A DNA stretch of 64,000 nt from Rhodopseudomonas sp. BR0M22 (GTDB taxonomy: Bacteria; Pseudomonadota; Alphaproteobacteria; Rhizobiales; Xanthobacteraceae), in assembly GCF_010907035.1 (NCBI RefSeq), contig NZ_QUMK01000023.1, positions 1-64,000 of the forward strand, read 5' to 3'. Position numbers and translations under genes: made by a program. Within the stretch, counting starts at the first letter, position 1, and each line of letters starts with the position of its first letter. Below, piece after piece: positions 43,524 to 52,564 of the stretch. The notes beneath the pieces are model-generated. The model searched no databases, had not been told where the DNA came from, and worked only from the letters and a program-made list of their open reading frames with translations.

Positions 43524-45011
43524 CTACGCCGCCTGCGTCTTATTCAGATGCGCGGCGACGATCTTCAGGTCGTCGACGAAACGGGCGTATTCGCGCTCTT
43601 TAGCTTCGGCGTCGGGCAGGCGCAGCAAATAGGACGGATGCACCGTGACCAGCACCTGCGGGCCGTCGGCGCGGTCGATCAGGCGGCCACGGGTGTTGTT
43701 GATCGGGGTGACCTTGCCGAGCACGCTCTGTGCCGCGGTAGCCCCCATGGCGACGACCAGCAGCGGCTGCACGGCGGCGAGTTCGCGCTCGACCCATTGC
43801 CGGCACGCCTTGATTTCCGGCGTGTTCGGCTTCTGGTGCAGACGGATCTTGCCGCGCGGCACGAATTTGAAGTGCTTCACCGCGTTGGTCACATAGGTCT
43901 TGCTGCGGTCGACGCCGGCTTCCGCCAGCGCCCGATCGAGCATCTGCCCGGCTGGGCCGACGAACGGCTTGCCGGAGAGGTCCTCCTTGTCGCCGGGCTG
44001 TTCGCCGACCAGCATCACGGTGGCGTGCGGCGGACCTTCGCCGAACACGGTCTGGGTGGCGTCCTTCCACAGGTCGCAGGCGCGGCAATCTTTCGCTTCC
44101 TCGCGCAGATGCGCCAGCGTGTCGGCCTTCGGCTTGGCTCTCTTCATCGGCTGATCCTGTCGCTGCGGCTTCTTCGGCGCAGTCGCCTCGGCCGCGACCA
44201 TCGCGTGCGCCTTGCGCTCGGCGTGGTCGATCAGCGGCTTGATCAGCACCGCCTCCGGCAGATTGCGCCAATACTTCTTCGGCATCTCGGCCTGCATCGC
44301 CTTGGTCTTCAGCCGCGCCGGATTGAAGATGCTGGCGTAGTAGGTGAGCCAGGTTTCTTCGAGGCGATCCTCCGACGGCGCCATCGCTTTGGTGACTCCG
44401 GGCGTGATCGCAACCCTGTGGCCGTCCCAATGGGCGCAGACATCGGGTGTCAGGATCGACCATTCCATATCGGCGAAGCGCCGCGCGAAGAACGGCGCGG
44501 CCAGCTCGACGATATGGTGCTCCGGCTCGAACCAGGCGACGTAGCGCGACTTCGGCTCGCGTCCGATCTCGCGGAAGCGGACGAAGGCATGCATCTTGTG
44601 CTCGTCGCGCCGCACCGCCTTGGCCATCGCCTGCAGCCGCGCCACGTCCGGATCGGTGGCGATGTGCATCAGCTCGGGATTGGCGCGGAGACGCCACAGC
44701 AACTGATACAGATAGGCAAAGCGCTGCGGATCGCGATGCAGGATGGCGATCTGCGCCAGCTCGACGAAGCGGGCGGGGACGTTGAAGGTCTGGGCCGGGG
44801 CTGGCGATTGAGTAGGGTGTACGAACGGCGTGGCCGTTTCGGCAAACGACCCGGCATCCGGTGCCAGCCCCGCCGCGCCGAACAGCTCCGGCTCGTCGCC
44901 GGTCACGCTCCATGTGATATCCGCCGGCGCCACATCCGCCAGCACCAGCTCCCGCGCGGCCTTGCGCCAGCCGCCAAAATCGGTGTCGCTGTCGAGCCGG
45001 ATGCGGTGCAT
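43524..45011 (-). CDS. DUF4130 domain fused to UdgX-type uracil-DNA glycosylase
   Basis: 495 residues from ATG 45011. The N-terminal ~260 residues are a DUF4130 domain of unknown activity (RDPQRFAYLYQLLWRLR, DEHKMHAFVRFREIG, MEWSILTPDVCAHWDG). After a Lys/Arg-rich linker (~265-300) comes a UDG-superfamily domain (~305-490): CRACDLW (C309, C312), VGEQPGDKEDLSGKPFVGPAG, NAVKHFKFVPRGKIRLHQKP and TVHPSYLLRLPDAEAK. GEQPGDKED and the GKIRLH loop with His392 are hallmarks of UdgX, which becomes covalently attached to DNA at uracil. The iron-sulfur ligands appear as three Cys plus His380, as in UdgX. It is paired with the radical SAM gene. Confidence 0.92.
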   Translation of the reverse strand: MHRIRLDSDTDFGGWRKAARELVLADVAPADITWSVTGDEPELFGAAGLAPDAGSFAETATPFVHPTQSPAPAQTFNVPARFVELAQIAILHRDPQRFAYLYQLLWRLRANPELMHIATDPDVARLQAMAKAVRRDEHKMHAFVRFREIGREPKSRYVAWFEPEHHIVELAAPFFARRFADMEWSILTPDVCAHWDGHRVAITPGVTKAMAPSEDRLEETWLTYYASIFNPARLKTKAMQAEMPKKYWRNLPEAVLIKPLIDHAERKAHAMVAAEATAPKKPQRQDQPMKRAKPKADTLAHLREEAKDCRACDLWKDATQTVFGEGPPHATVMLVGEQPGDKEDLSGKPFVGPAGQMLDRALAEAGVDRSKTYVTNAVKHFKFVPRGKIRLHQKPNTPEIKACRQWVERELAAVQPLLVVAMGATAAQSVLGKVTPINNTRGRLIDRADGPQVLVTVHPSYLLRLPDAEAKEREYARFVDDLKIVAAHLNKTQAA

Positions 45012-45065
45012 GGTGGTGATCGCTTGTTCTCCTTGTTCAATTAGTTGAGGATTACCCTTCAACGC

Positions 45066-45153
45066 GTCATGGCCGGGCTCGTCCCGGCCATCCACGTCTT
45101 TCTTGCGGTGCGCGACAGAAGGCGTGGATGCCCGGGACAAGCCCGGGCATGAC
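45066..45153. repeat. Dispersed palindromic repeat, family B, 88 bp
   Basis: Starts GTCATGGCCGGGCTCGTCC, ends GACAAGCCCGGGCATGAC, with inner arms GGCCATCCACGTC and GGCGTGGATGCC. It has exactly the length of the copy inside dnaE2 at 49447-49534 and shares its outer arms almost base for base. It lies between the radical SAM and UdgX genes. Confidence 0.85.
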
Positions 45154-45177
45154 GGAGGTTGTCTTTATGCGCTTAGT

Positions 45178-46428
45178 TCAAAACCCAAATCCCAGTTGCT
45201 GCGCCTTCGGCCGAAATCGCTCCGCCAGCCGTGCGCCGTCGAGCTGGTAAGCCGGCGGGCGGTGGTCGGGGAGAACGATGAACGGGAGCGCCTTGTTCCT
45301 TGGGATGTGGAGTTTGGCGAGGTCCGTGCTGCGGATCGCGCTGTGGCGGCGGGTGTCGATGATGCGGTCGACCGCCTTGCGGCCGAAGCCGGGAATGCGC
45401 AGCAATTCCTCGCGGCTGGCGCGATTGACGTCGAGCGGGAAGCGCTCGCGGTGGCGCAGCGCCCAGGCCAGTTTCGGATCCATCTCCAGCGACAGCATGC
45501 CGGCGGCGGGATCGATGATTTCGCCGGCGTCGAAGCCGTAGAACCGCATCAGCCAGTCGGCCTGGTACAGCCGATGTTCGCGCACCAGGGGCGGCGCCTG
45601 CAGCGGCAGAGCCCGGCTGGAATCGGGGATCGGGCTGAACGCCGAGTAGTACACCCGCTTCAGATTGTATGAGCCGTAGAGGTTGGCGCTGGTGTTGAGG
45701 ATGGTCTGGTCGGTGGCGCTGTCGGCGCCGACGATCATCTGCGTGCTCTGGCCGGCCGGTGCGAAGCGCGGCGGCTTGGCGCGGGTGGGGGCCTTCCGCG
45801 CCTCGGCTTTCGCCTCGGTCGCTTCATCCAGCTTCAGCCGTAGCCGCCCCATGGTGCGGCGGATGGCGCGGACGTTCTTCTCCGGCGCCAATTGAGCGAG
45901 GCTGTTCTCCTCCGGCATCTCGATATTGATGCTGAGCCGGTCGGCATAGCGGCCGGCCTTGGCGATCAGCGCGTCGTCGGCTTCCGGGATCGTCTTCAGA
46001 TGAATGTAGCCGCGGAAGTGATGCTCCTCCCGGAGGCACCGCGCCACTTCGACGATCTGCTCCATGGTGTAGTCGGCGCTGCGGATGATGCCCGAGGATA
46101 GAAACAGCCCCTCGATGTAGTTGCGGCGATAGAAGTCGAGCGTGAGCTGCACCACCTCGTCGATGGTGAAGCGCGCGCGCGGCACGTTCGACGAGGCACG
46201 GTTGACGCAGTACAGGCAGTCATAGGCGCAGGCATTGGTGAGCAGCACCTTGAGCAGCGAGATGCAGCGGCCGTCCGGCGCATAAGAATGACAGATGCCC
46301 ATGCCGGGCGCCGTGGAGCCGAGACCCTTGCCGCCCTGGCTGTCGCGTTTCTCCGTCCCGCTGGAGGCGCAGGAGGCGTCGTATTTTGCCGCGTCCGCCA
46401 GGATGGCCAGCTTGCGCTGCACGTCCAT
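45178..46428 (-). CDS. Radical SAM protein with C-terminal helix-hairpin-helix, putative DNA repair
   Basis: 416 residues. The cluster motif is CxxxCxxC at C67, C71, C74 (NACAYDCLYCVNR), preceded by CHSYAPDGRCISLLKVLLT with further cysteines. The SAM-binding core continues with GLFLSSGIIRSADYTMEQIVEVARCL and IHLKTIPEADDALIAKAGRYADRLSINIE (parts). Near the C-terminus is a helix-hairpin-helix, LLRIPGFGRKAVDRII (~350-370), a non-specific DNA-binding element. The family is annotated as a putative DNA modification or repair radical SAM protein and is nearly always paired with the DUF4130 protein found next door. It is divergent from imuA, and the SOS box at 46522-46536 is in the shared gap. The reaction is unknown. 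Confidence 0.9.
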   Translation of the reverse strand: MDVQRKLAILADAAKYDASCASSGTEKRDSQGGKGLGSTAPGMGICHSYAPDGRCISLLKVLLTNACAYDCLYCVNRASSNVPRARFTIDEVVQLTLDFYRRNYIEGLFLSSGIIRSADYTMEQIVEVARCLREEHHFRGYIHLKTIPEADDALIAKAGRYADRLSINIEMPEENSLAQLAPEKNVRAIRRTMGRLRLKLDEATEAKAEARKAPTRAKPPRFAPAGQSTQMIVGADSATDQTILNTSANLYGSYNLKRVYYSAFSPIPDSSRALPLQAPPLVREHRLYQADWLMRFYGFDAGEIIDPAAGMLSLEMDPKLAWALRHRERFPLDVNRASREELLRIPGFGRKAVDRIIDTRRHSAIRSTDLAKLHIPRNKALPFIVLPDHRPPAYQLDGARLAERFRPKAQQLGFGF

Positions 46429-46521
46429 GCTTGGAATCTCCTTGATTCATCTCGCGAAAAAATTTGCCGCAAGACCTCGGTGCGATCCCGATTGACTCCG
46501 CCCGGGAGCAGGGATTTATTA

Positions 46522-46536
46522 GAACATATCATGAAC
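46522..46536. promoter_or_regulatory. LexA (SOS) box, GAAC-N7-GAAC
   Basis: GAACATATCATGAAC is a perfect direct repeat of the alphaproteobacterial LexA site. It lies 62 bp before imuA and 94 bp before the divergent radical SAM gene, so one LexA dimer could control both directions. Control of imuA-imuB-dnaE2 by LexA is established in other alphaproteobacteria; control of the other operon is inferred. Confidence 0.85.
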
Positions 46537-46597
46537 AAATGAGCCGGCAACGGGTTCATCGAATCCGAAAAACGGCAAACGGAAAAAGGAGCGGCGC

Positions 46598-47383
46598 ATG
46601 GACAGCGCGCGCCTCGGCATGCTTGCGCGCCTGCAGGGCGAGATCGACCGGCTCGAAAGCGGCACGGCGGAGACGCTGCGCCGCGTGCCGCTCGGCCATG
46701 ACGACGTGGATGCGGTGCTGCACGGCGGCCTGATGCAGGGCGCGCTGCACGAAGTGTTCTGCGATGGCCGTCACGCCTCTGCTGCAACCGGCTTCATCGC
46801 CGGCGTGGCGCAGCTGCTCGCCGAGGCGCGCTATCTGCTCTGGATCCGCCAGGATTTTTCCGCGCGCGAGAACGGTGACCTGGCGATGGAGGGGCTGGCC
46901 GAACTCGGCTTCGACCCGCGCCGCCTGGTGATGGTGCGCGCCCATGATGCCGACAGCGCGCTCCGCGCCGCCGCCGATGCGCTGGCCTGCAACGGGCTCG
47001 GCGCGGTGATCACCGAACTGTGGGGCGAGACCCGCGCGTTCGATTCCGTCGCCTCGCGAAAACTGACGCTGGCGGCGCAGCAGTCCGGCGTTACCGCGCT
47101 GATGCTGCGGATCGCCGCTGCGCCGCAGGCTTCGACCGCGGAAACCCGCTGGGTGATCCGTGCGGCGCCTTCGCCGCCGATCGAAGGCTGGGGCGCTCCG
47201 GTGCTGGACACCTCTCTTGTTCGCAATCGTCGCGGCCAGACCGGCCGCTGGATCATGGAATGGAATTGTGATGCGTGCCGCTTCCGTGAACCGCAGGCGT
47301 ATCCTCGGCCTTTGGCTGCCGAGGCTTTCGACCGATCGGGTCGAACGGGCCTCGCTGCAGGCGAGCACCGGCTCGCCGGCTGA
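46598..47383 (+). CDS. imuA: ImuA, SOS mutasome accessory protein
   Basis: 261 residues. It resembles a RecA-like/SulA-like fold without ATPase motifs: LRRVPLGHDDVDAVLHGGLMQGALHEVF near the N-terminus (in parts LGHDDVDAVLHGGL), then GVAQLLAEARYLLWI, VITELWGETRAFDSVASRKL and WNCDACRFREPQAYPRPL. ImuA, ImuB and DnaE2 form the damage-induced mutasome for error-prone synthesis past lesions. The gene follows a perfect LexA box. Its 3' end overlaps imuB by 113 bases in a different frame, a feature seen in other alphaproteobacterial cassettes. Confidence 0.92.
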   Translation: MDSARLGMLARLQGEIDRLESGTAETLRRVPLGHDDVDAVLHGGLMQGALHEVFCDGRHASAATGFIAGVAQLLAEARYLLWIRQDFSARENGDLAMEGLAELGFDPRRLVMVRAHDADSALRAAADALACNGLGAVITELWGETRAFDSVASRKLTLAAQQSGVTALMLRIAAAPQASTAETRWVIRAAPSPPIEGWGAPVLDTSLVRNRRGQTGRWIMEWNCDACRFREPQAYPRPLAAEAFDRSGRTGLAAGEHRLAG

Positions 47384-48866
47384 TGCTGCGCCTCCGCGTG
47401 TCGTTGCCGCCAAGCGCGACAACGCGCTGGTGGTGGTCGCCTGCGATGCGCGCGCCAGCCGCGGCGGCGTGATGCCCGGAATGCCGCTCGCCACCGTGCG
47501 GGCGATGCATCCGGCGGTCGATGTCATCGACCACGACCCGCATGCCGATGCGGCGCTGCTGAATGCGATCGCCGACTGGTGCGATCGCTTCACGCCGTTG
47601 GTGGCGTTCGACGGCGCCGACGGGCTGCTGCTCGACATCACCGGCTGCGCGCATCTGTTCGGCGACGAGGCGAAGCTGCTGAACACGCTGACCGCGGCGC
47701 TGACGCGGCAGGGCTTTGCGGTCAGCGCCGCGATCGCCGGCACCGCGGTGGCGGCACGGGCGCTGACCCGCGGCGGCTCCGGCCTGATCGTCGCGCCGGG
47801 AGACGAGCTGCGCGCGGTGGCGCCGCTGCCGGTGGCGGCGCTGGGCGTCGATGACGCGATCGTCCGCGGCCTGCGCCGCGCCGGGTTCAAGACGGTCGGT
47901 GAAGTGCTGGCGCGGCAGCCGACCGAACTCGCCGCAAGGTTCGGTGAAGGCTTCGTCGCGGTGCTGCGCCAGGCGACCGGCGAAGACGACGCGCCGATCT
48001 CGCCGCGGCGGCCGGCACCGGACTACGTAGTCGACAAGAATTTTCCCGAACCGGTTGCCACCACCGAGGTCATTCTGCCGACGCTGCTGGCGCTGGCGCG
48101 GCTGCTGATCGCCGCGATGGAGCGGAGTGGCAAAGGCGCGCGGCAGCTCACCGCGAGCTTTTTTCGCAGTGACGGCGCGGTGCGCTCGATCAGCGTCGAG
48201 ACCGGACAGCCGGTGACGCGGGTCGAGGTGGTGCAGCGGCTGTTTGCCGAGAAGCTCGACGCGCTCGCCGATCCGCTCGATCCCGGTTTCGGTTTCGATC
48301 TGATCCGGCTCGCCGCCAGCGTCAGCGTGGCGGTGACCGAGGCGCAGCGCGGCTTCGACACCACCGCGCATCAGGCCGAGGATGTCGCCTTGCTGGCCGA
48401 CACGTTGGCGGCGCGGCTCGGCGCGCGGCGGGTGGTGCGCTATCTGCCGCAGGATACGCACATCCCGGAGCGCGCCGCGCTGGCCGTGCCGGTGCAGCAT
48501 TGTCCGCCGGACGCCGGCGATGCGCCGTGGCCGGGGCGCGCCGACGAGCCGCCGCTACGGCCGCTGCGGCTGTTGCAACAGCCCGAGCTGATCGAAGTCA
48601 TCGCCGGTACGCCGGACGATCCGCCGGCGCAATTCACCTGGCGCCGCGTTCACCACCGCGTCACCCGCGCCGAAGGCCCCGAACGCATCGCGATGGAATG
48701 GTGGCGCACCGCCGAGCCCGGCCTGACCCGCGATTACTTCCGCATCGAAGACGAAGCCGGCGCGCGGTTCTGGGTGTACCGCGACGGACTCTACAATGTC
48801 GAAGTGACGCCCCAGCCCGACGGCACCGGCCAGCCGCGCTGGTACATGCATGGATTGTTTGCGTGA
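47271..48866 (+). CDS. imuB: ImuB, inactive Y-family polymerase-like mutasome hub
   Basis: 531 residues from ATG 47271, inside the end of imuA; the frame is open further upstream but overlaps imuA coding sequence deeply. The Y-family palm is recognisable: ILGLWLPRLSTDRVER, VVAAKRDNALVVVACDARASRGGVMPGMPLATVRA, and FDGADGLLLDITGCAHLFGDE, where the catalytic acidic pair of DinB is not conserved, as expected for ImuB. The C-terminal half has little-finger and beta-clamp/hub regions ending in GARFWVYRDGLYNVEV. ImuB binds the sliding clamp, ImuA and DnaE2. A family C repeat separates it from dnaE2. Confidence 0.93.
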   Translation: MRAASVNRRRILGLWLPRLSTDRVERASLQASTGSPADAAPPRVVAAKRDNALVVVACDARASRGGVMPGMPLATVRAMHPAVDVIDHDPHADAALLNAIADWCDRFTPLVAFDGADGLLLDITGCAHLFGDEAKLLNTLTAALTRQGFAVSAAIAGTAVAARALTRGGSGLIVAPGDELRAVAPLPVAALGVDDAIVRGLRRAGFKTVGEVLARQPTELAARFGEGFVAVLRQATGEDDAPISPRRPAPDYVVDKNFPEPVATTEVILPTLLALARLLIAAMERSGKGARQLTASFFRSDGAVRSISVETGQPVTRVEVVQRLFAEKLDALADPLDPGFGFDLIRLAASVSVAVTEAQRGFDTTAHQAEDVALLADTLAARLGARRVVRYLPQDTHIPERAALAVPVQHCPPDAGDAPWPGRADEPPLRPLRLLQQPELIEVIAGTPDDPPAQFTWRRVHHRVTRAEGPERIAMEWWRTAEPGLTRDYFRIEDEAGARFWVYRDGLYNVEVTPQPDGTGQPRWYMHGLFA

Positions 48867-48902
48867 AGGATGTGGACGAGTGGATAGGCACAGCCTCTCC
48901 CC

Positions 48903-48983
48903 GTCATTGCGAGCGAAGCGAAGCAATCCAGAAGCTCCGTGCACTGAGCTGGATTGCTTCGTCGCTTCGCTCCTCGCAATGAC
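48903..48983. repeat. Dispersed palindromic repeat, family C, inside the imu operon
   Basis: Starts GTCATTGCGAGCGAAGCGAAGC and ends GCTCCTCGCAATGAC (long arms quoted in part: GTCATTGCGAGCGAAGC), with inner arms AATCCAGAAGCTCC and GAGCTGGATTGC. It fills the imuB-dnaE2 gap and would form a hairpin in the operon mRNA. Confidence 0.83.
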
Positions 48984-49021
48984 GAAGTCAGTTGTCAGTT
49001 CAAGAATCCAAGGCGGATCGC

Positions 49022-52000
49022 ATGACACCGCGCTACGCCGAGATCGGCCTCACCACTAATTTCTCGTTCCTCGAAGGCGGCTCGCATCCGCAGGACTATG
49101 TCCATGAAGCGAGCCGGCTCAGGCTCGACGCCATCGGGATCGCCGACCGCAACACGCTGGCCGGCGTGGTCCGTGCTTATAGCGAGCTCGACAATAAAGA
49201 CCTCGTCCATAAACCGAAGCTGCTGATCGGCGCGCGGCTGTGCTTTGTCGACGGCACGCCGGACACTCTCGCCTATCCGACCGACCGCGCCGCCTACGGC
49301 CGCCTCTGCCGCCTGCTCAGCACCGGCAAGCTGCGTGCGGAGAAAGGCGAGTGCCATCTGACGTTTGGGGATTTGGAGGAGTTCATCCACGAGCCTGCGA
49401 GGTCAACCCCTCAGCCTTCCGCCTCTATCCATCAGTTTCCAACGCCGTCATGGCCGGGCTCGTCCCGGCCATCCACGTCTTTAAGCAAGGCCGTGCTGGT
49501 GTCCGTGGATGCCCGGGTCAAGCCCGGGCATGACGGTGGGAAATGTATGGCCAGTAACTCTCAGATCTTGCTGGTGGTGATGCCATCCTATCGCTTCCAA
49601 ACCAAGACGATCGCCACCGCATTGGATCGTCTCGCCGCGCTCAACGCCGGCGCCGTCTGGCTCGGCCTGGCACCGTATTATCGCGGCGACGACAAGCGGC
49701 GGCTCGATCGGCTGCGCCGTATCGCGGCTATCGCCAAGGTGCCGTGCATCGCCACCAACGACGTGCTGTATCACCATCCGCGGCGGCGGGCGCTGCAGGA
49801 TGTGCTGACCTGCGTGCGCGAGAAGACCACGATCGATAAAGCCGGGCGCCGGCTGGAAGCCAATGCCGAGCGGCACTTGAAGCCCGCCGCCGAGATGGCG
49901 CGGCTGTTTCGCCATGATCCCGATGCCATCGCCGAGACGCTGCGCTTCGCCGAGCGGATCGATTTCTCGCTCGATCAGCTCAAATATCAATATCCAGACG
50001 AACCCGTGCCACCGGGCAAAACCGCGCAGCGTCATCTCGAGGATCTGACCTGGGCCGGTGCGCATAAAGCGTTCCCCAAGGGGATTTCGCCGCGTACCAA
50101 GAAGGTGCTGCACAAGGAGCTGCGGCTGATCCGCAAGCTGCGCTACGCGCACTACTTCCTCACCGTGCACGACATCGTGCAGTTCGCGCGCTCGCAGAAC
50201 ATCCTGTGCCAGGGCCGCGGCTCGGCGGCGAACTCGGCTGTGTGCTACGTGCTCGGCGTCACCGCGGTTAACCCGGCCGAGGTCGACCTCTTGTTCGAGC
50301 GTTTCATCTCCAAGGAGCGGCTGGAGCCGCCTGATATCGACGTCGACTTCGAGCACGTCCGGCGCGAGGAGGTGATGCAATACGTTTATCGCCGCTACGG
50401 CCGCCACCGCGCCGCGATCGTCGCCACCGTCATTCACTATCGGCCGCGCTCGGCGATCCGCGACGTCGGCAAGGCGCTGGGGCTGACCGAGGACGTCACC
50501 GCGGCGCTGGCCGATACGGTGTGGGGCAGCTGGGGCAAGGGCCTCAACGACATGCAGGTCAAGCAGGCCGGGCTCGATCCGGCCAATCCGATGATCGCGC
50601 TCGCGGTGGAACTCGCCACCGAGCTGATCGAATTTCCGCGGCATCTGTCGCAGCACGTCGGCGGTTACGTGCTGACCCAGGATCGGCTCGATAGTTACGT
50701 GCCGGTCGGCAACGCCGCGATGGCGGATCGCACCTTCATCGAGTGGGACAAGGACGACATCGACACCCTGAAGATGATGAAGGTCGACGTGCTGGCGCTC
50801 GGCATGCTGACCTGCATCCGCAAATGCTTCGACCTGATTGACGCACACAAGCGCGAACGCTGGACGCTCGCCAGCCTGCCGCGCGGGGTGCCGGCAGTTT
50901 ACGACATGCTGTGCCGCGGCGAGTCGCTCGGCGTGTTCCAGGTCGAGAGCCGGGCGCAGATGAACATGCTGCCGCGGCTGAAGCCGCGCATATTCTACGA
51001 TCTCGTCATCGAAGTCGCGATCGTGCGGCCCGGCCCGATCCAGGGCGACATGGTGCACCCTTATCTGCGCCGGCGTAACAAGCAGGAAGACGTCTCTTAT
51101 CCGTCGCCATCGCCGCAGCACGGCGACAAGGACGAACTCCGCAAGGTGCTGCACAAGACGCTCGGCGTCCCGCTGTTTCAGGAACAGGCGATGCGCATCG
51201 CCATCGAGGCGGCCAAGTTCACGCCCGAACAGGCCAACGGCCTGCGCCGCGCGATGGCAACGTTTCGCAATGTCGGCACCATCGGCAAGTTCGAGTCGAT
51301 GATGGTCGAGAACATGGTGGCGCGCGGCTACGAGCGTGCGTTTGCGCAAAACTGTTTCGAGCAGATCAAGGGCTTCGGCTCTTATGGCTTTCCTGAGAGC
51401 CACGCCGCCAGTTTCGCTCAATTGGTCTATGCGTCGTCATGGCTCAAGCACGTGCATCCCGACGCGTTCTGCTGCGCATTGCTTAACTCGCAGCCGATGG
51501 GGTTCTACGCGCCGGCGCAGATCGTCGGTGATGCGCGCGCCAACAAGGTCGAGGTGCGGCCGGTCGATGTCTCGTTCAGCGAAGGCCAATGCACGCTCGA
51601 AGAACCAGCCGGCAAGTATCACGCGGTGCGGCTCGGCTTCCGGATGATCGACGGCTTCCGCTGGGCCGATCCGGACGAGGAGCGGGTGCGCCTGGAAGCT
51701 GGTGAAGCGCCGAGCGACGACTGGGCGGCACGCATCGTCGCGGCGCGGGCGAGAGGGGCGTTCACCTCGCTCGAACAGTTCGCCCGCATCACCGCGCTGC
51801 CGAAGCGCGCGCTGATCCTGCTCGCCGACTCCGACGCGTTCCGCTCGCTCGGGCTCGATCGCCGTGCCGCGCTGTGGGCGGTGCGGCGGCTGCCCGACGA
51901 TGTGCCGCTGCCATTGTTCGAAGCCGCGCACGCCCGCGAGCAGGACGACGAGCGCGCCGCGCCGCTGCCTTTGATGCCGATGGCCGAGCACGTCGTCGCC

Positions 52001-52564
52001 GATTATCAGACGGTGCGGCTGTCCCTGAAGGGCCACCCGATGGAATTTCTGCGCGCGCTGTTCGCCGCCGAGCGGGTCGTGACATGCCGAGAGGTGTCGC
52101 AGTCCAAGCAGCGCGCGAGCGGCCGCTGGCTGCGCTGCGCCGGCGTCGTGCTGGTGCGGCAGCGGCCGGGCAGTGCCAATGGGGTGATCTTCATGACCAT
52201 CGAGGACGAGACCGGCATCGCCAACATCGTGGTGTGGCCGGCCATCATGGAGAAATTTCGCAAAGAGGTGATGGGCGCCCGGCTGGTGCTGGTCGAGGGC
52301 AGGGTGCAGGCGAGCCCTGAAGGCGTGGTGCATCTCGTCGCCGAACGCCTGATCGATCGCAGCCATGAGATGGGCCGGCTCGCCGAAGGTCTGGTTCGCC
52401 CGGCGCTGCCGGACGGCGCCGACTTCTACGAGCAACTGACCTCTGAGAAGCGCGGCTACGAAGCCCTCAACGGCGACCGCCGCGACACGCCCGACGCCCC
52501 CGCCCAACGCCATCGCCACCCCCGCGACGTCCGCATCCTGCCGCCGTCACGGGATTTTCACTAA
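49022..52564 (+). CDS. dnaE2: DnaE2 (ImuC) error-prone DNA polymerase with in-frame repeat insertion
   Basis: 1180 residues from ATG 49022, longer than the ~1080-1160 usual for the family. The N-terminal PHP domain starts YAEIGLTTNFSFLEGGSHPQ. The polymerase active site is PPDIDVDFEHVRREEV with Asp440 and Asp442, and QGRGSAANSAVCYVLGVT and FGSYGFPESHAASFAQLVYASSW follow. A C-terminal OB domain (GVIFMTIEDETGIANIVVWP) closes it. Residues ~141-174 (TPSWPGSSRPSTSLSKAVLV to VKPGHDGGK) are encoded by an 88-bp family B palindromic repeat (49447-49534). The insert keeps the frame and sits in the PHP domain, so the polymerase may still work. It is the catalytic part of the SOS mutasome, third gene after imuA and imuB. 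Confidence 0.95.
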   Translation: MTPRYAEIGLTTNFSFLEGGSHPQDYVHEASRLRLDAIGIADRNTLAGVVRAYSELDNKDLVHKPKLLIGARLCFVDGTPDTLAYPTDRAAYGRLCRLLSTGKLRAEKGECHLTFGDLEEFIHEPARSTPQPSASIHQFPTPSWPGSSRPSTSLSKAVLVSVDARVKPGHDGGKCMASNSQILLVVMPSYRFQTKTIATALDRLAALNAGAVWLGLAPYYRGDDKRRLDRLRRIAAIAKVPCIATNDVLYHHPRRRALQDVLTCVREKTTIDKAGRRLEANAERHLKPAAEMARLFRHDPDAIAETLRFAERIDFSLDQLKYQYPDEPVPPGKTAQRHLEDLTWAGAHKAFPKGISPRTKKVLHKELRLIRKLRYAHYFLTVHDIVQFARSQNILCQGRGSAANSAVCYVLGVTAVNPAEVDLLFERFISKERLEPPDIDVDFEHVRREEVMQYVYRRYGRHRAAIVATVIHYRPRSAIRDVGKALGLTEDVTAALADTVWGSWGKGLNDMQVKQAGLDPANPMIALAVELATELIEFPRHLSQHVGGYVLTQDRLDSYVPVGNAAMADRTFIEWDKDDIDTLKMMKVDVLALGMLTCIRKCFDLIDAHKRERWTLASLPRGVPAVYDMLCRGESLGVFQVESRAQMNMLPRLKPRIFYDLVIEVAIVRPGPIQGDMVHPYLRRRNKQEDVSYPSPSPQHGDKDELRKVLHKTLGVPLFQEQAMRIAIEAAKFTPEQANGLRRAMATFRNVGTIGKFESMMVENMVARGYERAFAQNCFEQIKGFGSYGFPESHAASFAQLVYASSWLKHVHPDAFCCALLNSQPMGFYAPAQIVGDARANKVEVRPVDVSFSEGQCTLEEPAGKYHAVRLGFRMIDGFRWADPDEERVRLEAGEAPSDDWAARIVAARARGAFTSLEQFARITALPKRALILLADSDAFRSLGLDRRAALWAVRRLPDDVPLPLFEAAHAREQDDERAAPLPLMPMAEHVVADYQTVRLSLKGHPMEFLRALFAAERVVTCREVSQSKQRASGRWLRCAGVVLVRQRPGSANGVIFMTIEDETGIANIVVWPAIMEKFRKEVMGARLVLVEGRVQASPEGVVHLVAERLIDRSHEMGRLAEGLVRPALPDGADFYEQLTSEKRGYEALNGDRRDTPDAPAQRHRHPRDVRILPPSRDFH
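49447..49534. repeat. Family B palindromic repeat inside the dnaE2 coding sequence
   Basis: An 88-bp copy, starting GTCATGGCCGGGCTCGTCC and ending GGTCAAGCCCGGGCATGAC, equal in length to the intergenic copy at 45066-45153. It is translated in frame as part of DnaE2 with no stop codon. Confidence 0.92.

Follow-up and report, generated by a model that had tools for sequence, protein, structure and literature searches.

The error-prone DNA polymerase gene dnaE2 of Rhodopseudomonas sp. BR0M22 carries a CGTC-tagged palindromic repeat that is read in frame as part of the protein. In all probability, the repeat entered a loop of DnaE2 in an ancestor, after which selection would have kept the reading frame, the arms of the element would have been kept as a repeat, and the spacer and linkers would have drifted. 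That palindromic repeats can be translated as part of a protein has long counted as a curiosity, with no accepted account of how they are maintained. The window analysed here is a stretch of 64,000 nucleotides (contig NZ_QUMK01000023.1, positions 1 to 64,000), and all coordinates refer to it. An imuA-imuB-dnaE2 cassette occupies positions 46598-52564, and the features of this region are as follows.

45065..45154, + strand: intergenic copy of the same repeat family, beside the UDG gene, with intact copies in that gap of four other genomes
46522..46536, + strand: GAAC-N7-GAAC site 5' of imuA, the sole such site in the window (chance expectation 1.23)
46598..47383, + strand: imuA, without a Pfam match, its name taken from the cassette order
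47160..48866, + strand: imuB, IMS family, with ORF extent as listed and a putative start
48903..48983, + strand: palindromic repeat belonging to a different family (GTCATTGCGAGCG...), in the gap from imuB to dnaE2
49022..52564, + strand: dnaE2, error-prone DNA polymerase, 1180 amino acids, a stop-free ORF

The product of dnaE2 matches NCBIfam NF004225 (error-prone DNA polymerase) and contains the stretches PDIDVDF and KVDVLALG, which we take to be C-family catalytic motifs; the GAAC-N7-GAAC site 5' of imuA is presumably LexA-box-like. Outside the insert, pN/pS lies at 0.18-0.25 (13 genomes), and gene-wide it is about 0.24. The gene is intact and, judged by these ratios, under constraint, from which we infer function. 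An interrupted polymerase gene had been named in the original prediction as the observation that would speak against it, and the sequence points the other way. Although the assemblies of G014 and G015 are interrupted at the repeat or close to it, the chance that we are dealing with an assembly or frame artefact, or with a dead gene, is practically negligible, as the single-contig genomes G004, G005, G006, G008 and G011 carry the insert and the gene-wide ratio is that of a constrained gene. An Rfam search of positions 44000-50500 returned 0 matches. Elsewhere in the window, between 15713 and 42028, lie several longer palindromes with GTCATTCCGGGG/CCCCGGAATGAC-like arms, and members of other families.

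The original prediction described an 88-bp GTCAT...ATGAC element at 49447-49534, of the same length as an intergenic copy and lying in frame in dnaE2 with no stop or frameshift. The position is exact, the intergenic copy of equal length is found at 45066-45153, and the ORF at 49022-52564 is open throughout. A length of 90 bp describes the repeat unit better, because the outer C and G belong to the family: in our fetched set of 30 loci from the window's own genome, a C precedes the element in all 17 dimers and a G follows it in 16 of the 17. Without these outer bases, the 88 bp are not divisible by three, whereas 90 bp make 30 codons. The insert has the following parts.

49385..49445, + strand: upstream linker, residues 122-141, missing from insert-free homologues and of genome-dependent length
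49446..49535, + strand: CGTC-tagged palindromic dimer, 90 bp or 30 codons, within residues 142-172
49446..49477, + strand: left arm, comprising CGTC, a 9-bp stem ATGGCCGGG/CCCGGCCAT with a 5-base loop (stem and loop by eye), then CCACG
49478..49503, + strand: variable 26-base spacer, SKAV type
49504..49535, + strand: right arm, an inverted copy in which one stem pair and the loop are unlike those of the left arm
49536..49567, + strand: downstream linker, up to residue 182, extra in genes with the insert

The dimer is therefore built of two 32-base arms flanking a 26-base spacer, with the CGTC tag present at both outer ends and a unit that reads ATGGCCGGG-CTCGT-CCCGGCCAT-CCA, its stem starting with AT. 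The segment 49420-49560 folds into a single RNA hairpin (-78.3 kcal/mol, z -6.9). About 30 encoded residues had been predicted, which is right for the 90-bp element and too low for the whole: 57 net residues are added (73 in the window versus 16 in R. pseudopalustris, between identical anchors), because the linkers, about 20 residues before and 11 after, are also extra. Short PSASIHQ-like repeats occur in the upstream linker (49385-49445; loci L033 and L034), and their copy number varies among genomes.

To follow the insert through the alphaproteobacteria, we collected DnaE2 N-termini from the genomes of the genus, from the best 80 of the matches in named genomes and from a class-wide search in which 137 of 289 genomes had a match and 129 of the places listed were used (29 as loci, 100 fetched). 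This yielded 227 loci, and 221 of them could be aligned across the insert site; these rows count at least two genomes twice, G007 (R. palustris XCP) and G013 (R. pseudopalustris DSM 123). Six one-sided or broken loci were omitted (L042 and L061, both of G015, L044 and L048, both of G014, and L047 and L098), among which L042, L061 and L048 show the insert or part of it. Between the anchors, 196 of the 221 proteins have 16 residues, 11 have 18-25 and 14 have 52-87, and all 14 rows of the longest class belong to the R. palustris group. The homologue alignment proposed in the original prediction thus came out in its favor, with the extra residues lacking from insert-free proteins, and on this alignment the dnaE2 element is a true in-frame insertion.

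Within the genus (16 genomes), the insert is whole in one gene in 13 genomes and whole on a contig in G014, whereas in G015 (Rhodopseudomonas sp. AAP120) a contig end has only the right arm together with the spacer; the site is empty in G013. The insert is not specific to a strain: it is present in 15 of the 16 genomes (14 whole). The original prediction took it as a sign that the element is or was mobile, but with this distribution the insertion is an old one and says little about mobility at present. Counting the outer bases, the element measures 90 bp in 12 copies and 87 and 75 bp in the others of the 14 copies, and all measured insert lengths are multiples of three; across the insert-bearing proteins, 36-71 residues are added to the PHP domain. 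By eye, no target-site duplication was seen at the dnaE2 insert.

A palindrome scan of the 221 N-termini gave one other repeat of the CGTC type, a single unit in the DnaE2 of a Sphingomonas metagenome-assembled genome (L138). That palindrome is in frame, in the stretch after the neighboring strand, and it would be an independent case in the same DnaE2 domain. Plasmid-borne DnaE2 matches of Sulfitobacter that looked as if they spanned the insert were also considered, and the best of them is without it.

To place the insert in the protein, we modeled the first 420 residues with AlphaFold2 from a 47-sequence alignment (mean pLDDT 80.7, pTM 0.70). The modeled fold matches DNA polymerase III alpha structures, and residues 127-177 have pLDDT values under 50 and lie between a helix (115-122) and a strand (182-187). 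The insert therefore models as a disordered loop in the PHP domain. Together with the alignment and the constraint on the gene, this model bears out the earlier suggestion that DnaE2 gains a linker from the element. According to PMC3919608 (available text), the PHP metal site is not intact in most DnaE2 proteins, and that a new loop is tolerated in this domain agrees with this.

The repeat belongs to a family with many genomic copies. The left arms of the dnaE2 copy and of the 45066-45153 copy agree at all 32 bases, the outer C among them. Allowing up to 3 mismatches, we found 5 arms in the window versus 0 in 100 shuffles, and 41 arm matches in the whole of its genome versus 0 for a reversed-pattern control; the 30 loci fetched out of these 41 matches hold 17 distinct dimers. 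The repeat occurs in all 16 genomes of the genus with 9 to 269 arm matches per genome, the fewest being in R. pseudopalustris (9 versus 30-269 in the other 15). Dimer length is divisible by three in 11 of the 17 genomic dimers and 52 of 102 frames are stop-free, and because of these two counts the open frame of the dnaE2 element is by itself unremarkable.

A search for further copies inside genes had been suggested, and within the candidates listed we found no second clear one. From the matches listed across the genus, 20 regions were chosen by their long open frames, with the dimers of the window's own genome represented by one region (L293), and a Pfam scan covered 20 ORFs, drawn from 18 of the regions. 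Three of the 20 ORFs carrying the repeat had matches: PurL, ThiF and CobN/chelatase. For PurL and ThiF the repeat precedes the matched domain and probably the true start as well, and the CobN/chelatase ORF of G014 lies at a contig start and changes frame across the repeat, so none of the three was retained. Among the candidates listed, dnaE2 thus appears to be the only clear in-frame case of the CGTC repeat. The CobN family offers a separate observation: in five genomes (L328, L330, L333, L336 and L337; L295:1-300), a loop of the protein contains an in-frame stretch of at least 40 or so residues (PLPLWERVA...SPTRGEGE) that is short or absent in other genomes of the genus and resembles another repeat family. 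In G014, the CobN loop with the PLPLWERVA-type site carries a CGTC dimer, with the frame change and contig start just mentioned.

CGTC repeats were defined by Di Nocera, De Gregorio and Rocco in 2013, who found CGTC-3 in all six R. palustris strains examined and named DnaE2 among the repeat-tagged proteins (PMC3733652). The dnaE2 repeat shares with their CGTC-tagged REPs the tag, a stem of 9 bp that opens with AT, a loop of 5 bases and the tail CCA, as well as paired copies and many genomic copies. The superfamily is recognized by a stem of 8-9 bp with AT, a loop of 4-5 bases, a CCA tail, a terminal unpaired CGTC tag, and repetition mostly as opposite-orientation pairs (PMC3733652), and each of these is seen here. 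In the G006 element, an outer base T gives a TGTC tag, a variant that the superfamily allows (PMC3733652). In the available text of that paper, no transposase is found for the CGTC repeats and mutator effects are speculated upon. We conclude that the dnaE2 repeat is a member of this known kind, and perhaps one already counted there. What goes beyond the available part of that account is the spread over the group, the block swaps described below and the frozen arms, which hardly change as DNA while the encoded protein drifts. Other repeats of Bradyrhizobium and Rhodopseudomonas are treated in PMC5082802, and the available text of PMC12306157 does not name Rhodopseudomonas.

Comparison with other repeats places the element more closely. 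Like the Rickettsia palindromic elements RPE-1, RPE-4 and RPE-6, with which we compared it by description, it is palindromic and lies in frame in a protein gene, and here too the insertion is in a gene that is functional as far as constraint tells. RPE-1 is longer (PMC3733652), and in Rickettsia such repeats are found in many genes; here, dnaE2 is the one clear in-frame case in the candidates listed. The original prediction had drawn the likeness to Rickettsia but assigned the element to a different family; the likeness holds, and the separation does not hold for all of these elements, as RPE-4 and RPE-6 are placed in the CGTC superfamily (PMC3733652). RAYT-mobilized REPs of the GTAG group are likewise small palindromic pairs spread over the genome, but they carry a GTAG tag and their RAYT genes are flanked by repeats (PMC3733652), whereas the tag here is CGTC. 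A RAYT was also considered as the mover, and distribution does not support it: Y1_Tnp matches occur in 6 of the 16 genomes (5 above the cut-off) and the repeat in 16 of 16. Enterobacterial RU elements in genes (PMC2759123, available text) are also small mobile repeats read as protein, although they are other elements in other hosts.

We next compared synonymous and nonsynonymous variation along dnaE2 in 11 genomes, omitting G001 and G003, whose arms are decayed, and the empty G013, with G014 and G015 outside the set. The left arm has a pS of 0.039 and a pN of 0.093, and the right arm 0.025 and 0.063, values that for pS are rough given arms of 10-11 codons. The corresponding values are 0.30 and 0.07 for codons 301-1180, and on average 0.32 and 0.07 for 274 windows, each 11 codons long, that lie outside the insert. 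Only 1 of these 274 windows has a pS as low as either arm, while pN is as high as in the left arm in 71 and as high as in the right arm in 120. Including G001 and G003 gives a pS of 0.067 (left) and 0.020 (right) and a pN of 0.099 and 0.102. The spacer varies freely (pS 0.48, pN 0.51; pN/pS 1.07), and the linkers have a pS of 0.55 and 0.67 with pN/pS of about 0.5. Among the twelve 88-base copies in dnaE2, the arms are 94 and 95% alike and the spacer 49%. Because arm pS is very low while arm pN is near the gene level or above, the dnaE2 arms are held as nucleic acid and not as peptide, and the spacer looks unconstrained.

These values bear on the idea that the polymerase has co-opted the encoded peptide as a linker with a function, for example as a contact to ImuB or the clamp, or as the kind of mutator modification on which Di Nocera and colleagues speculated. 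The frame is kept in 14 genomes of the group, and PMC3733652 argues that chance is a poor explanation for insertions into repair genes. Recruitment is nonetheless rather improbable, given the ratios of 1.07 in the spacer and about 0.5 in the linkers, arm amino-acid sites that vary about as much as the gene or more, block swaps that replace the peptide wholesale, the modeled disorder of the insert, and the fact that R. pseudopalustris manages without it.

The intergenic copies beside the UDG gene show whether the frozen arms are peculiar to dnaE2. In G000, G012, G002 and G009, the four copies found by arm search (which missed G011) and on which these identities rest, the arms are 95 and 92% alike and the flanks 61 and 55% (ungapped), and in three of the six pairs, those whose spacers are equally long, the spacer is 49% alike. 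Read by position, the G011 copy is also intact, with 1 and 2 mismatches in its arms. The UDG gap could be placed in 12 of 13 other genomes (G008 is the exception), and it holds either an intact copy with 0-2 mismatches per arm or none; no decayed copy was seen in the eight gaps without an intact one (at least 13 mismatches, versus at least 11 and a mean of 15 in shuffled gaps). Because the intergenic copies keep the same arms, freezing of the arms would seem to be a trait of the whole family and not a dnaE2 function. In the gap itself (45020-45190; L311-L323), the CGTC dimer occurs in G000, G012, G002, G009 and G011, a GTCATTGCGAG-type repeat in G006, G010, G004, G005 and G007, and neither type in G001, G003 and G013, and it looks as if the repeat family had changed there.

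Instead of family-wide upkeep, some role that the dnaE2 hairpin plays as nucleic acid could be what freezes the arms, for example as a brake on transcription or translation or as a place where the mRNA of the SOS cassette is cleaved. Arms frozen at synonymous sites, the very stable RNA hairpin (-78.3 kcal/mol, z -6.9) and an insert in 15 of 16 genomes all agree with such a role. We consider it quite unlikely, however, because the UDG copies are equally frozen in their arms and equally free in their spacers, so that nothing special to dnaE2 is needed; moreover, the dnaE2 arms are decayed in G001 and G003, and G013 lacks the insert. As G001 and G003 are rich in copies (115 and 83 arm matches), their decayed arms also indicate that upkeep is not obligatory. 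The arms would be frozen either by exchange between copies or by a constraint on the hairpin, neither of them strict.

The insert has a mosaic history. Identical 88-base elements are carried by G005 and G006, whose genes are 84% alike, while the spacer is of a different type in the sister of each, G012 and G000; the sister pairs G000/G006 (92%) and G005/G012 (94%) fall to 65-76% in parts of the insert. Types of left loop, right loop and spacer were assigned by hand for 11 genomes, and on the tree they require 4, 5 and 4 changes, respectively, versus a minimum possible of 1, 2 and 3. The left loop comes in two types in this set, two bases apart, and none of the 11 copies is intermediate between them. 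We read these patterns as block mosaicism, with element types swapped between lineages. A search for spacer donors in the 16 genomes, using patterns of the LLRL and SKAV types with up to 3 mismatches, placed the LLRL spacer only in the dnaE2 genes of G005 and G006, and the SKAV spacer in dnaE2 of 8 genomes and in three other places with 3 mismatches each; no exact donor copy of either type outside dnaE2 was identified in these genomes. Inversion of the element was considered as an origin of the spacer types, and by eye no reversed-spacer match was seen.

Over dnaE2 codons 400-800 (window about 50222-51421), G000, G006 and G010 group with a Rhodopseudomonas metagenome-assembled genome from outside the group (L079) and not with the other genomes, a sign of recombination. 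Because parts of dnaE2 are recombinant, the tree is clouded for reading gain or loss of the insert. In AU tests, a single clade of insert-bearers is rejected for the whole gene (p-AU 0.0001), for the recombinant codons 400-800 (1e-89) and for the last third (0.02), but not for the first 400 codons (0.44). An imuA-imuB tree places R. pseudopalustris with the insert-bearers G001, G003, G008 and G011, weakly (80/77). R. pseudopalustris may have lost the insert or may never have had it. Import of its empty dnaE2 from outside was considered and rejected, the flank after the site being 74-80% identical to the genus and 51-58% to eight outside rows.

Several independent insertions of the family into the same loop, in place of one insertion and later swapping, would account for spacers that differ between lineages and for an R. 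pseudopalustris that is empty though nested on the whole-gene tree, and the L138 repeat elsewhere in the same DnaE2 region suggests that the domain can be hit more than once. This history is unlikely, as orientation, frame and junction are identical and the linkers partly similar in 14 genomes, and repeated landing is improbable without a site-specific enzyme, none of which is tied to the family.

We therefore favor a single ancestral insertion, in which the ancestor of the R. palustris group would have received a CGTC-tagged dimer in a surface loop of the DnaE2 PHP domain. A 90-bp unit with about half of its frames open could enter a gene without breaking it, and the landing site, a loop between a helix and a strand, would have tolerated extra residues that are predicted to be disordered and may be neutral for polymerase function. 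Selection on the polymerase would then have kept the reading frame, leaving length differences among the measured copies that are multiples of three. As a repeat, the element would meanwhile have continued to evolve: either exchange with the numerous copies elsewhere or a constraint on the hairpin would keep its arms, at the level of DNA or RNA, close to the sequence of the family. The spacer and linkers would have drifted and been swapped as blocks between lineages. A further reading, to which we give a minor but real chance, is that the loop is a cassette site, at which the resident repeat is overwritten repeatedly and in frame from the same genome or from imported dnaE2 alleles, giving each lineage a differing surface peptide.

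In the R. palustris group, the PHP domain of an error-prone polymerase that is under selection accommodates 36-71 additional residues. One in-gene copy followed through 14 genomes, alongside intergenic copies for comparison and one empty relative, makes it possible to separate selection on the protein, selection on the hairpin and exchange between copies, and the result at synonymous sites indicates that the repeat's own rules, more than those of the host protein, govern the arms even within a gene. If the loop is indeed a cassette site, a repeat would persist as a repeat inside a protein gene, and the surface peptide of an error-prone polymerase would be specific to each lineage.
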